Origin: Bacteroidales bacterium
GTDB lineage: Bacteria; Bacteroidota; Bacteroidia; Bacteroidales; UBA932
Length of the DNA: 42,614 bases
Reading direction: 5' to 3'
Assembly (NCBI GenBank): GCA_017464245.1
Contig: JAFUDV010000072.1
Span: 1 to 42,614, forward strand
Below the pieces are notes generated by a model that ran no database searches, had not been told where the DNA came from, and saw nothing but the letters and a program-made list of their open reading frames with translations. Both the position numbers and the translations under genes were made by a program. Positions within the stretch are counted from its first letter, which is position 1. The number at the start of each line of letters is the position of its first letter. Positions 3,412 through 42,614 of this stretch are shown piece after piece.

Positions 3412-4947
3412 ATGGCATACGAAAATTGCGAATTATGGTGGGTCACCGGAGCACAGCTCCTGTACGGTGGCGACGCGGTCGTCCAGGTGGACGGCCACAG
3501 CAAGGAAATGGTCGCGGGCCTCAACGCCTCCGGCAACATTCCCGTCAAGATTGTTTACAAAGGCACGGCCAACTCCAGCAAGGAAGTGGAAGAGGTGATG
3601 AATGCAGCCAACAACGCTCCCGCCTGCGTGGGCGTGATCACCTGGATGCACACCTTCTCCCCGGCGAAAATGTGGATCAAGGGCCTGCAGGACCTGAAAA
3701 AGCCGCTGCTCCACTTCCACACCCAGTACAACGCCGAGATTCCGTGGAAAGAGATCGACATGGACTTCATGAATCTGAACCAGAGCGCCCACGGCGACAT
3801 TGAGTTCGGTCATATCTGCGCCCGCATGCGGGTTCCCCGCAAGGTGGTCGTGGGGTACTGGAAAGACCCTGAGGCCCAGCGCCGCATCGCCATCTGGGCC
3901 CGGGTGAGCGCCGCCCTCGCCGATGCCCGGAACGTCCGCTGCCTGATGTTCGGCATGAACATGAACAACGTGGCCGTCACCGACGGTGACCGCGTGGAGT
4001 TCGAGCAGCGCCTCGGATACCACGTGGACTACTGCCCCGTGTCCAACCTGATGGATTACTGGAAGAAGGTCACCCCCGAAGAGACCGAGGCCCTGGTGGA
4101 AGAGTACAAGAAGCGCTATACGGTCAAGATCGACGAGACCGGTCCCGAAGTGTACTGGGAGAAAGTGCGCAACGCCGCCCGTGCGGAGATCGCCCTGCGC
4201 CGCATCCTCGCCGACAAGGGCGCCACGGCCTTCACCACGAACTTTGACGACCTGGGTGATGCCGACATCAACGCTCCGGACTTCGTCGGTTTCGACCAGA
4301 TTCCCGGCCTGGCCTGCCAGCGCCTGATGGAAGAGGGCTATGGCTTCGGTGCGGAAGGCGACTGGAAGACCGCCTGCCTGCAGCGCACGCTCTGGGTGAT
4401 GTCCCAGGGCCTGCCGGGCGGCTGTTCCTTCCTGGAGGACTACACCCTGAACTTTGCCGAAAGCGGCAGCTCCTGCCTGCAGAGCCACATGCTGGAGGTG
4501 TGCCCCATGATCGCCAGCGACCGTCCCAAGCTGGAAGTCCACTTCCTGGGCATCGGCATCCGCAAGCAGCCCACCGCCCGCCTGGTGTTCACGTCCAAGA
4601 CCGGCCCCGGTTCCAAGGCCACGATCGTGGACCTGGGCAACCGCTTCCGCGTGATCGTCCAGGATGTCGACTGCATCGAGCCGCAGCCCATGCCCAAGCT
4701 CCCCGTCGCGTCGGCCCTGTGGATCCCGCGTCCGAGCTTCGAAATCGGCGCCTGCGCCTGGATCCTGGCCGGCGGCACCCACCATTCGGCCTTCAGCTAT
4801 GACATCACGGCCGAATACTGGGGCGATTTCGCCGAATTCACCGGCGTGGAATTCCTGCACATCGGAAAGGATACCACCATCCACAAGTTCAAACGCGAAC
4901 TGCGCATGAACGAGGTGTACTACCTGCTGAACAAAGCCCTCAAGTAG
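3412..4947 (+). CDS. araA: L-arabinose isomerase
   Basis: A 511-residue cytoplasmic enzyme interconverting L-arabinose and L-ribulose with a divalent metal, usually manganese. The N terminus (WWVTGAQLLYG) is typical of AraA. The catalytic region is intact: EEGYGFGAEGDWK carries active-site glutamates, HMLEVCP carries a metal-binding histidine, and GGTHHS near the C terminus carries the last metal-ligand histidine. The C-terminal LRMNEVYYLLNK matches the family end. The size is standard (about 500 residues). The stop codon is one base before the araB start, so translation of the two is probably coupled. Confidence 0.96.
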   Translation: MAYENCELWWVTGAQLLYGGDAVVQVDGHSKEMVAGLNASGNIPVKIVYKGTANSSKEVEEVMNAANNAPACVGVITWMHTFSPAKMWIKGLQDLKKPLLHFHTQYNAEIPWKEIDMDFMNLNQSAHGDIEFGHICARMRVPRKVVVGYWKDPEAQRRIAIWARVSAALADARNVRCLMFGMNMNNVAVTDGDRVEFEQRLGYHVDYCPVSNLMDYWKKVTPEETEALVEEYKKRYTVKIDETGPEVYWEKVRNAARAEIALRRILADKGATAFTTNFDDLGDADINAPDFVGFDQIPGLACQRLMEEGYGFGAEGDWKTACLQRTLWVMSQGLPGGCSFLEDYTLNFAESGSSCLQSHMLEVCPMIASDRPKLEVHFLGIGIRKQPTARLVFTSKTGPGSKATIVDLGNRFRVIVQDVDCIEPQPMPKLPVASALWIPRPSFEIGACAWILAGGTHHSAFSYDITAEYWGDFAEFTGVEFLHIGKDTTIHKFKRELRMNEVYYLLNKALK

Positions 4948-6562: not shown

Positions 6563-6591
6563 AGAGGTGCACCTCAAGGTGCACCTCTTTT
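6563..6591 (+). terminator. Terminator of the arabinose operon
   Basis: An 11-bp stem (6563-6573 with 6578-6588) with a 4-nt loop, followed by TTTT, 24 bp after the araB stop. It is the first unit of the hairpin array. Confidence 0.7.
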
Positions 6592-6687
6592 CGCTCATAT
6601 CGCTGATTAGCAGTGCTTTAACATCAGAGAGGTGCACTACACGGTGCACCTCTTTCCATTCATTTCGCTAACTATCAACGTCTTAAC

Positions 6688-6719
6688 GCAAAAGAGGTGC
6701 ACCCTATGGTGCACCTCTT
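6688..6719 (-). terminator. Terminator of the MFS-ROK operon
   Basis: A 12-bp stem (6692-6703 with 6708-6719) with a 4-nt loop. Read on the minus strand it is followed by a short T run (TTTTGCG), 31 bp beyond the ROK kinase stop codon. Confidence 0.6.
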
Positions 6720-9121: not shown

Positions 9122-10264
9122 ATGAAAAAGATTCTCATTTCCCTCGGCGCAGCCCTCGCCATCCTCGGCTGCAGCCCCAAGGAGCAGGTGGTCCTCACCG
9201 CCTCCGGCCTGAACCCCGCCGACTTCGTGAACCAATACAACGGCGCCGCCACGGCCCTCTACACCCTCACGAACGAAAGCGGCATGGAAGTGTGCATCAC
9301 CAACTTCGGCGGCCGCATCGTCTCCATCCTGGTCCCGGACAAGGACGGCAGGATGCAGGACGTCGTCCTGGGCTTCGACAAGGTCTCCGACTACTTCCCG
9401 GAGAACAACCAGTCGGACTTCGGCGCCTCCATCGGCCGGTACGCGAACCGCATCAACCAGGGCAGGATCACCCTGGACGGTGTGGAGTACCAGCTTCCGC
9501 AGAACAACTTCGGGCACTGCCTCCACGGCGGTCCCACCGGCTGGCAGTACCAGGTGTACGAGTGCGTCGAGGCCGACGCCTCCCACGTGAAGCTCCTTCG
9601 CGTCTCCCCCGACGGTGACAACAACTTCCCGGGCGAAGTGAAGGCCTATGTGACCTACACCCTCACCGCGGACAACAGGATCGACATCGCCTACGAGGCC
9701 ACGACCACGGCCCCGACCGTCATCAACATGACGAACCACTCCTACTTCAACCTCGCCGGCGATCCGGCCGGACACAGCATCGTGGACGACCTCCTCTATG
9801 TGAACGCCGCGAACTACACCCCGGTGGACGACACCTACATGACCACGGGTGAGATCGTTCCGGTGGCCGGCACTCCTTTTGACTTCACCACGGCCCATCT
9901 GATCAGCGACGGCATCACCGCCGACAACGAGCAGATCCGCAACGGAAACGGCTACGACCACAACTGGGTCCTGGACACCGCGGGCGACGTCACGAAGGTC
10001 GCCGCCGAGCTGTACAGCCCGGTCTCCGGCATCGACCTGAAGGTCTATACCGACGAACCCGGCATCCAGGTGTACGCCGGCAACTTCCTGGACGGCACCG
10101 TCACCGGCAAGAAGGGCGTCGTCTACCAGCAGCGCCACGCCATCTGCCTGGAGACCCAGCACTATCCGGACTCCCCGAACAAGGCGGATTGGCCGTCGGT
10201 GGTCCTCCGCCCGGGCGAGACCTACCGCAGCCGCTGCATCTTCGCTTTCAGCGTGAAGGACTAG
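9122..10264 (+). CDS. galM: Aldose 1-epimerase (mutarotase), lipoprotein
   Basis: A 380-residue aldose 1-epimerase, interconverting alpha and beta anomers of glucose, galactose or other aldoses. The mutarotase core is complete: ITNFGGRIVSILVPD, IGRYANRI, the catalytic-region histidine in NHSYFNLAG, YDHNWVLD, and ETQHYPDSPN with the C-terminal catalytic region. The start at 9122 gives a lipoprotein signal peptide (MKKILISLGAALAILGC, Cys17), so the enzyme is exported and lipid-anchored, probably facing the periplasm, where it would feed the correct anomer to a permease. It is divergent from the MFS-ROK operon. Its stop codon directly abuts that of the convergent regulator, with no bases between. 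Confidence 0.92.
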   Translation: MKKILISLGAALAILGCSPKEQVVLTASGLNPADFVNQYNGAATALYTLTNESGMEVCITNFGGRIVSILVPDKDGRMQDVVLGFDKVSDYFPENNQSDFGASIGRYANRINQGRITLDGVEYQLPQNNFGHCLHGGPTGWQYQVYECVEADASHVKLLRVSPDGDNNFPGEVKAYVTYTLTADNRIDIAYEATTTAPTVINMTNHSYFNLAGDPAGHSIVDDLLYVNAANYTPVDDTYMTTGEIVPVAGTPFDFTTAHLISDGITADNEQIRNGNGYDHNWVLDTAGDVTKVAAELYSPVSGIDLKVYTDEPGIQVYAGNFLDGTVTGKKGVVYQQRHAICLETQHYPDSPNKADWPSVVLRPGETYRSRCIFAFSVKD

Positions 10265-34481: not shown

Positions 34482-34510
34482 CGATTTTTTCAAGTCTCCG
34501 ACTTTGTCTG

Positions 34511-34555
34511 AAGGGGGCTCTGCCCCCTTGCATACCCCCGGGCACCTCCGGTGCC
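34511..34555. repeat. Two small GC-rich palindromes between lysS and the methyltransferase gene
   Basis: AAGGGGGC-TCT-GCCCCCTT (34511-34529) and GGCACC-TCC-GGTGCC (34541-34555) are perfect hairpins, each with a 3-nt loop, 11 bp apart. Neither has a clear T run, so termination of lysS is possible but weak. They end 19 bp before the next start codon. Confidence 0.6.
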
Positions 34556-34574
34556 TAAACCTTCGATTCAACGT

Positions 34575-35411
34575 ATGAGGATAGAGACCGTCACATCGGC
34601 ACAGAATCCGAAAATCAAGAATCTGCTCCTGCTGCAGGAGAAATCCAGGGCGCGGCGGGAGCAGGGTCTTTTCGTGGTGGAGGGCCGACGGGAGCTGGAG
34701 CACTGCCTTGAGGCGGGCTTCACCGTCCGGACGGTCTTCGTCTGTCCGGACCTGGCCGCTCCGGAGGGGATAGGCCTTCCGGGGGCATCGACCTTATTTT
34801 TAGCCCCCGGAAGGCCTATTCCCTCCGGGGACATCCCGCTCATCGTCGAGATTCCCGAGGCGCTGTACCGGAAGGTGGCGTACCGGGAGAGCACGGAAGG
34901 CATTATCGCCGAGGTGGAGTGCCGGAACATCGGCCTGGAAGACCTGGACCTGCCGGAGCATCCGCTCGTCGTGGTGCTGGAATCGGTGGAGAAGCCGGGA
35001 AACCTGGGTGCCGTGCTCCGCAGCGCGGACGCCGCCCGGGCCGATGCGGTCATCGTCTGCGACCCGCTGACGGACCTGTGGAACCCGAACCTCGTCCGCG
35101 CGAGCCTCGGCGGCATCTTCACGGTGCCGACGGTCGCCGCGACATCGGAGGAGACCATCGCCTGGCTCCGGGCCCATGGCATCCGCATCCTCACCGCCCA
35201 GCTGCAGGATTCCTCCTGGTACTATGACGTGGACATGACCGTGGGCACGGCCCTGGTGATGGGCACGGAATCCACCGGCCTCACGGACATCTGGCGCCGG
35301 GCTGCCGACGCCCACATCCGCATCCCCATGCTCGGCCGGCTGGACAGCCTCAACGTCTCCGTCTCCGCCGCCATCCTCCTGTTCGAGGCCGTCCGGCAGC
35401 GGAACGCCTGA
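34575..35411 (+). CDS. TrmH/SpoU-family RNA 2'-O-methyltransferase with palindromic insert
   Basis: A 278-residue SPOUT methyltransferase that uses S-adenosylmethionine to methylate a ribose 2'-OH in rRNA or tRNA. The N-terminal substrate-binding domain (about 10-100) has QNPKIKNLLLLQEKSRARR and FVVEGRRELEHC. The catalytic domain holds the three SpoU motifs: NLGAVLRSADA, VMGTESTGL and SLNVSVSAAILLFEA. Residues 63-85 are encoded by a long inverted repeat (34761-34828) and have no counterpart in family members I remember; the reading frame stays open. The ATG at 34575 gives the usual family N terminus. Confidence 0.9.
   Translation: MRIETVTSAQNPKIKNLLLLQEKSRARREQGLFVVEGRRELEHCLEAGFTVRTVFVCPDLAAPEGIGLPGASTLFLAPGRPIPSGDIPLIVEIPEALYRKVAYRESTEGIIAEVECRNIGLEDLDLPEHPLVVVLESVEKPGNLGAVLRSADAARADAVIVCDPLTDLWNPNLVRASLGGIFTVPTVAATSEETIAWLRAHGIRILTAQLQDSSWYYDVDMTVGTALVMGTESTGLTDIWRRAADAHIRIPMLGRLDSLNVSVSAAILLFEAVRQRNA
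34761..34828. repeat. 26-bp inverted repeat inserted in a coding sequence
   Basis: The left arm (34761-34786, opening CCGGAGGGGATAGG) pairs with the right arm (34803-34828) over 26 bp with one mismatch, which is a G-U pair in RNA; the loop is 16 nt and A/T-rich. The element supplies residues 63-85 of the methyltransferase. Read in reverse complement it encodes nearly the same peptide (PEGIGLPGA ... APGRPIPSG), so either orientation stays open. This resembles palindromic elements that insert in genes in frame, such as those of Rickettsia. Confidence 0.8.
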
Positions 35412-41737: not shown

Positions 41738-42614
41738 TCAGTCCAGCGTCCAGGAGGCGCCGTCCTTGGTGTCCTTGACGGTGATGCCGAAGGAGGCAAG
41801 GAGGTCGCGGATGCGGTCGGATTCGGCCCAATTCTTCTCCGCACGGGCCTTGCGGCGGTCTTCCAGGACGATGTCCATCACGCCTTCCAGCGCCTTCTCG
41901 GCCTTGCCGGAGGAGCCGGCGGCTTCCTCGTCACGGAGGCCCAGGACGCCGAAGACGACGTCGTCGAAGAGCTTCCGGAGAGCGGCCTTGTCACCTTCGG
42001 GCAGTTTCCCGCCGTTGATGAGTTTCACGGCCTCGAACAGGTGCGCGATGGCGATGGGGGTGTTCAGGTCGTCGCAAAGGGCGTCATAGACGTTCTCGAC
42101 AAGGGCGGCGACGGAAGCGGAAGGAGATTCCTTTGCTTCGCCGGTCGGCCCGCTTTCCCCCGCGCCCAGTTCCCGGGCGGCCTGCATGAGGCGCCTGTAA
42201 CCCTTCTCGGCGGCCTGCAGGGCCTCGTTGGAGAAGTCCAGCGTGCTGCGGTAGTGGGCCTGGAGGATGAAGAAGCGGATGGTCATCGGGCTGTAGGCGC
42301 GCTCCAGCTTGGGATGGTTGCCGCTGAAGAGTTCCGGCAGCGTGATGAAGTTCCCGAGGGACTTGCCCATCTTCTGCCCGTTGATGGTGATCATGTTGTT
42401 ATGGACCCAGTAATGGACGCCCTGGGTGCCGCGGGAGGCCCGGTTCTGCGCGATTTCGCACTCATGGTGCGGGAACATGAGGTCCATGCCGCCGCCGTGG
42501 ATGTCGAATTCCTTCCCGAGGTACTTCTCCCCCATCACGGAGCACTCCAGGTGCCAGCCCGGGAAGCCTTCGCCCCACGGGGACGGCCAGCGCATGATGT
42601 GCTCGGGCTCGGCC
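41738..42614 (-). CDS. cysS: Cysteinyl-tRNA synthetase, 5' part beyond the window
   Basis: The C-terminal 292 or so residues of a class I cysteinyl-tRNA synthetase; the N terminus with the HIGH motif lies past the right edge. Visible are WHLECSVM (a zinc-binding cysteine), [17 protein letters not shown] (zinc-binding His and Glu), the KMSKS motif as KMGKSLGN, the DALR-type helical region ([16 protein letters not shown]) and the tail with [16 protein letters not shown]. The reading frame continues open to the last base. Confidence 0.96.

Follow-up and report, generated by a model that had tools for sequence, protein, structure and literature searches.

A large family of protein-coding palindromic elements in Bacteroidales that appears to work like Rickettsia palindromic elements

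Rickettsia and Wolbachia provide the best-known cases of palindromic inserts lying in frame within genes, and some intragenic repetitive extragenic palindromic (REP) sequences occur elsewhere. The Rickettsia palindromic elements (RPEs), reportedly described by Ogata et al. in 2000 and 2002, are located predominantly in one reading frame. In the available excerpts of published accounts, each RPE encodes a conserved peptide and has a length of about 100–150 bp, some elements measuring 84–98 bp (PMC3767692); REPs are given there with a stem of 5–13 bp, GTAG/CGTC tags and REP-associated tyrosine transposases (RAYTs) (PMC3733652). Among the titles and abstract openings covered, none reports an element of this kind from the Bacteroidales. 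The element considered here is a 68-bp palindrome within a methyltransferase gene of a Bacteroidales bacterium (assembly GCA_017464245.1, contig JAFUDV010000072.1, positions 1 to 42,614 of the forward strand; this whole stretch of 42,614 nucleotides is called the window).

The 68 bp are quite probably a copy of a non-autonomous, RPE-like family of mobile hairpins, whose arms would be kept complementary, and whose loop would be flipped, by template switching. This family, named family C by us, is judged to be new and large, its palindromic elements being protein-coding and working like RPEs. Its carriers are uncultured bacteria of the gut, and their genus is probably Candidatus Cryptobacteroides, of the Bacteroidales.

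The palindrome and its host gene

The host gene (34575..35411, plus strand) is open from the ATG at 34575 to the stop codon at 35409–35411. It encodes a TrmH/SpoU-family 2'-O-ribose RNA methyltransferase with an MRM3-like substrate-binding N-terminal domain, matching PF00588 (E 1.9e-36) and PF22435 (E 7.9e-16), and a homologue of known structure (PDB 4x3l) aligns with the methyltransferase at full length, with a gap at the insert. The palindrome lies in frame at residues 63–85 and comprises a left arm (34761–34786) and a right arm (34803–34828), which form 25 of 26 pairs (96% complementary) around a 16-nt loop (34787–34802). Read on the minus strand, this loop is TAAAAATAAGGTCGAT and fits the conserved loop of the family. 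An earlier note, made from the sequence alone, had described 26-nt arms with one mismatch and a 16-nt loop inside an intact TrmH-family gene, and both parts of that description are confirmed. Of the 11 inverted repeats listed for the window, no other is as complementary as the palindrome, and 142,614 bases of its genome contain six inverted repeats with a score of at least 15, versus one in a triplet-shuffled copy.

The very stable mRNA hairpin expected in the note was borne out by computed folding: 108 nt of RNA around the palindrome reach −67.1 kcal/mol, versus −42.8 (standard deviation 3.6) in 200 dinucleotide shuffles (z −6.7), none of which was as low. The note had also stated that both strands encode nearly the same peptide. 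The palindrome reads PEGIGLPGASTLFLAPGRPIPSG on the coding strand versus PEGIGLPGAKNKVDAPGRPIPSG on the opposite strand, and the statement therefore stands outside the loop and fails within it.

Two small GC-rich hairpins are visible by eye in the intergenic DNA 5' of the methyltransferase gene (34500–34560). Elsewhere in the window, at 6563–6718, three near copies of a AGAGGTGCAC...GGTGCACCTCT palindrome stand in a row, and their 6628–6718 part is open within a 358-aa frame.

Dispersal of family C among genes and species

The search for relatives was based on R1, a covariance model of 78 positions built from nine aligned copies, which had been chosen with a stem filter. The window loop was assigned by the alignment of these nine copies, by the loop profile and by an R1 match that scores 90.8 bits and lies on the minus strand, the window copy being itself one of the nine from which the model was built. 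Eighteen genomes chosen for their matches gave 66, 61, 58, 45, 36, 29, 22, 22, 20, 19, 17, 15, 15, 14, 5, 4, 3 and 2 R1 matches; the 14 multi-copy genomes thus hold 14–66 each, among the best 150 candidates scored and with both strands of one place able to count. At the genus level, R1 matches were found in 54 of 400 genomes, possibly including palindromes outside the family, and the best match reaches at least 50 bits in 27 of the 400. Under stricter filters, 198 genomes of the order, including one other of the same genus, gave matches in the window's own genome and none in the remaining 197.

In 736,543 bases from 48 sources, which were picked for holding matches and do not represent a genome average, 122 R1 matches correspond to 89 places, 87 of them with the loop motif; as that motif also served as the filter for the 87-copy set (two of 89 failed), loop invariance within the set is partly by construction. 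Since R1 rewards pairing, a loop-only search was performed in which just the loop plus two closing bases were matched, blind to the arms. It found 76 places in 654,720 bases versus two in the reversed sequence, and 71 of the 76 coincide with R1 places.

In the window's own genome, the palindrome is the only copy of family C that was found. The note had counted uniqueness of the palindrome among the findings that would speak against insertion, together with conservation of its peptide as protein. Relatives hold many copies of the element, and its peptide is not conserved within the protein, so the single copy does not refute the insertion idea. A second R1 place in this genome (contig C7, L228:9501–9590, 46 bits) is a palindrome with a different loop and was not accepted as family C, which means that weak R1 matches alone are no proof of membership. 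Two genomes with weak best matches, G221 and G113, do contain copies with the family loop: the strict motif is present at 21 of the 24 places read (6/9 and 15/15, respectively), six further short loci not having been read at the place itself.

The hosts of family C are protein-coding genes without a common function. Open frames of at least 150 aa span 83 of the 89 places, and Pfam domains were found in 26 of the 27 host frames scanned. These include Mur ligase, LpxK, ATP synthase gamma (two species), ATP synthase A chain, MiaA-type IPP transferase, DnaX, DprA (two species), DNA polymerase I, a class I tRNA synthetase (IleRS), TruB, ketoacyl synthase, a frame that combines LptF/LptG and formyltransferase domains, prephenate dehydrogenase, peptidase M16 and alpha-2-macroglobulin (two species), among others. 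The hosts identified as CysRS (cysteinyl-tRNA synthetase), IleRS, DnaX, PolA and atpG exceed NCBIfam cut-offs. Most bacterial DNA is coding, and the intragenic share alone may therefore reflect chance; the preservation of the frame does not. A site occupied in one species can be empty in a different species. Copies occur in both orientations, as the note had anticipated for an element able to enter either way.

The gene for CysRS illustrates such a site. Part of it lies in the window (41807..42481, minus strand; tblastn orthologue alignment; TIGR00435 cysS, E 2.6e-42), where family C is absent from the position that it occupies in sister species. Among 16 aligned orthologue loci, the CysRS loop contains family C in six and other inserts in several more, and the "empty" sites may be remnants.

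The methyltransferase loop itself was compared among orthologues. A match to the protein is present in 399 of 400 genus genomes, paralogues counted. Of 144 loci taken in, 140 yielded a frame, 25 of which failed the loop motif; the figures that follow refer to 139 in-genus sequences, with the window's own included and G149 present twice, and with order-level outgroups, L046, L052 and L058 excluded. The loop at the insertion site is short (fewer than 26 residues) in 58 of them and has at least 26 residues in 81. In the alignment proposed in the note, the segment is not conserved within the methyltransferase: many orthologues lack it or have unrelated inserts in its place. This finding, the spread of family copies through numerous unrelated genes of the sister species and the occurrence of both orientations support the in-frame, RPE-like insertion that the note had put forward.

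It might be argued that the palindrome was formed once, locally, by a template-switch mutation in the methyltransferase gene, with no mobile element involved. The loop is indeed a palindrome hotspot, since an inverted repeat with a score of at least 13 is present there in 23 of 139 orthologues and elsewhere in the gene in none, the loop averaging 85 of its 820 nt; all 23 fall among the 81 longer loops and none among the 58 shorter ones. The palindrome is also single in its own genome. Against such an origin, the same loop recurs in many unrelated genes, at the 76 places of the loop-only search versus two in reversed sequence, and near-identical arms are found in different genes of one genome. 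A one-off origin is contradicted for the family and is very unlikely for the window copy; template switching survives as the proposed way in which the arms are maintained.

The inserts of the methyltransferase loop fall into several families, sorted by eye and lettered by us: besides family C, which is the window element, these are A (interior of GGGAGGGGCC type), B (arms GGGTATACCC), D (SAENYFLCS-PKNQFS), E (RWPVGAGHDD), F (CHSERSEES/VIPSEA), G (AGQAGND) and H (SLRDPVRANA). With several other palindromic families in the same loops, protein length variation in the genus may owe much to them. The window's own genome holds eight places of family A, two of them in frame, in murB and in an aminotransferase-like gene; this murB (L228, 11392–12534, contig C7) carries two different in-frame inserts, one of CHSERSEES type and one family-A palindrome. 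A scan of 1,503,568 bases (the window, genus loci and five order-level outgroup loci) gave 78 non-overlapping hairpins with a stem of at least 14, one mismatch allowed, and a loop of 3–30; nine have a stem of at least 18 and a loop of at least 12, six of these at the methyltransferase site. As this sample is centred on the methyltransferase gene, the scan is no measure of a genome-wide share. Two further observations concern the methyltransferase: in L050 (G006) the same loop is filled by an in-frame tandem repeat with a 27-nt unit (APRDDNNEG), and L304, on a contig recorded as Bacillota and perhaps belonging to a mislabelled metagenome-assembled genome, encodes a methyltransferase 68% identical to that of the window.

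Conserved loop, paired arms and codon register

The nine seed copies combine a conserved 16-nt loop with variable arms. In these copies, 19 of 26 pairs are altered on both sides, which none of 500 shuffles equalled; among the 87 copies, arm positions 12–18, counted from the loop outwards, hold 0.05–0.59 bit on either side and are paired in 84–97%, and pairing at arm positions 12–24 is 0.90 within copies versus 0.39 between copies, all these values being biased upwards because the seeds were stem-filtered and R1 rewards pairing. In the 76 loop-only places, pairing at arm positions 6–24 is at least 0.8 in 55, 0.6–0.8 in 12, 0.45–0.6 in two and lower in seven. Some of the unpaired places resemble half-elements, with a left arm and loop and no matching right arm (L245 at about 10032–10099, L232 at about 1229–1296 and L247 at about 3437–3504).

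Arbitrary-looking outer arms had suggested that the arms derive from the target, with each insertion duplicating its flank in inverted form. That idea is weakened by arms recurring between genes of one genome (15 of 16 positions shared between genes of G338), and from this recurrence it follows that the arms travel with the element.

Sister genomes show how the arms change. In the sister species G093 (L059), the same methyltransferase insertion is present with a similar right flank and a loop inverted relative to the window; this loop sequence is the same as in record JAFSJK010000034.1 (goat reticulum). The two genes are identical at 702 of 825 positions. Counted by hand, each of the four left-arm differences has a compensating change in the right arm, and two right-arm differences are uncompensated. 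Between the CysRS copies L176 and L201, three of three left-arm differences are compensated, also by hand. Opposite orientation at a single site is found in two further genes. The note had taken diverged arms in close homologues as a sign against insertion; worded thus, the test does not apply, as the arms do differ between relatives but mostly in step, with pairing kept.

These observations can be brought together in a mechanism for the preferred reading. A hairpin with a stem of about 26 bp around the conserved 16-nt loop would enter permissive loops of many proteins, to which it would add, in frame, some 22 residues acting as a polar linker. Once the hairpin is in place, quasipalindrome correction, in which replication switches template from one arm to the other, would rewrite one arm from the other and could flip the loop. 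According to the accessible parts of two accounts, arms are made alike and spacers are inverted by template switching (PMC8604942; PMC8794818), and compensated arm changes and an inverted loop at the same site in sister species would be its outcome. The opposite loops of the window and L059 may instead stem from independent insertions in opposite orientation.

Compensatory changes would equally be expected if the stem were selected as an RNA or DNA structure, such as a regulatory hairpin or a protein-binding site. The covariation in the nine copies and the conservation of loop and stem length agree with this. However, both orientations relative to coding occur, so that some copies would no longer present a loop signal in the mRNA; moreover, the hosts lack a common function and many orthologues lack the element. 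Such selection is considered unlikely, and template switching is preferred to it because, as far as those excerpts go (PMC8604942, PMC8794818), it both homogenises arms and inverts spacers.

The position of family C relative to codons is strongly biased. A clear frame is available for 56 of the 89 places, and 50 of these 56 copies are in register (35 read forward, all in a single phase, and 15 read in reverse in the phase that corresponds to it); of the six elsewhere, three are probably antisense calls (L063, in TrmH, and both copies of L233, with atpG on the other strand). By hand, the forward and reverse phases are one register, in which the left arm ends on codon position 2 and the right arm begins on position 1, and third positions therefore pair with third positions. 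GGN then pairs with CCN and GAN with TCN, giving Gly, Pro, Glu, Ser and Ala from both arms and on both strands. Frames are open through the 89 places in 77 + 71 cases in the used register, and in 42 + 25 forward and 53 + 26 reverse in the others, which are little used. In the 87-copy set, a frame of at least 150 aa runs through 79 copies in the preferred register, and 44 of the 87 also have one in another register.

Selection of the insert as a protein linker, with the DNA palindrome following from peptide constraints, would account for the strong preference for one register, in which Gly/Glu codons pair with Pro/Ser codons (by hand). Yet third positions, free to drift under such constraints, remain paired; four copies lie in no frame of at least 150 aa and are still palindromes with the same loop; and the loop residues differ by orientation. 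This explanation appears improbable.

Within the mobile-hairpin reading, it is tentatively proposed that the heritable identity of the element is the 16-nt loop and the stem length, the arms being almost unconstrained in sequence and repeatedly rewritten by host template switching. The wobble-to-wobble register might then allow the element to persist and change within essential genes, whichever strand is read.

Candidate mobiliser and comparison with described systems

The hairpin would be moved in trans by a hairpin-recognising enzyme, and an HUH-type protein may be a candidate. A RAYT-like Y1 transposase family of about 308 aa, with up to eight matches per genome, is represented by L340 (940–1866) and its relatives. 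That family C is a REP-like element moved by these RAYT-like HUH transposases is possible and rather doubtful. The Y1 (HUH) protein of about 308 aa is present in 36 of 50 genomes tested and in 12 of the 14 multi-copy genomes, and was found in none of nine near-complete genomes of the same genus without R1 matches; the Pfam Y1 model, however, has a match in 23 of 31 genomes, among them four of those nine. No tag signal was seen, with GTAG near 10 of 87 copies and CGTC near 15, compared with 8–28 of 87 for four control words. When the flanks of 16 Y1 loci were scanned for four family motifs (several loci repeat the same gene, and the transposase frame was recognised in nine), the only one encountered was that of family E, in a single hairpin at a distance of 1.1 kb (L336). 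In all, the distribution and flanks of Y1 neither support nor exclude it as the mobiliser.

Several points weigh against the mobile-hairpin reading, some of them through its possible mobiliser. The Y1 protein of about 308 aa was not found in G000 (84.7% complete), G221 or G113, and it is present without any R1 match in 18 of 36 carrier genomes; no family-C hairpin motif was found beside the Y1 gene at the 16 loci scanned. Direct repeats of 5–9 nt flank 25 of 87 copies versus 16 of 87 random places, giving no clear target-site duplication of the kind that goes with miniature inverted-repeat transposable elements (MITEs). When the longest spanning frame is taken for the 87 copies, 63 are in register, 20 are in another and four have no frame of at least 150 aa, an assignment affected by the long antisense frames of this DNA. 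The CysRS copy L204 shows two uncompensated changes (by hand), and the bias in the pairing rates described above counts here too. Mobility is read from sequence comparison, movement itself not having been observed, and the inserts only presumably lie in surface loops of the host proteins.

A family of this size, with 14–66 matches in each of 14 species and many housekeeping hosts, offers a way to study how selfish hairpins enter proteins and persist in them. With many sister genomes, arm correction and loop inversion are traceable at single sites, and the role of template switching in bacterial protein evolution can be tested.

Among described systems, REPs and RAYTs resemble family C in that Y1 transposases occur in many of its genomes. 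They differ in the stem, which is 26 bp in family C versus 5–13 bp, and family C has no GTAG/CGTC tag, lies mostly inside frames and was not seen beside the Y1 transposase gene at the loci scanned. The coding palindromes of nematomorph mitochondria are, in the available portion of their description (PMC6649704), long inverted repeats likewise kept within coding sequence; both of their arms encode conserved protein regions, whereas family C is an added, dispersed segment. Quasipalindrome correction, to judge from the partial texts cited for it (PMC8604942, PMC8794818), shares the homogenisation of arms and inversion of the spacer seen between sister species, but it is a mutation process and not an element, and here would act on a dispersed one.

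RPEs differ from family C in several respects. Family C belongs to another phylum and is 68 bp long (78 model positions) versus 100–150 bp, and its arms have low sequence conservation yet are paired around a conserved loop. The comparison concerns the mode of working and not kinship, R1 having been searched in the genus and the order. In that mode the two agree: following the available excerpts on RPEs (PMC3767692, PMC10969869), both are dispersed palindromes lying in frame in unrelated genes, and different groups can fill the same locus of orthologues. As with RPEs, family C is found mostly in one register, in 50 of 56 copies with clear frames and in 63 of 87 by the longest frame.
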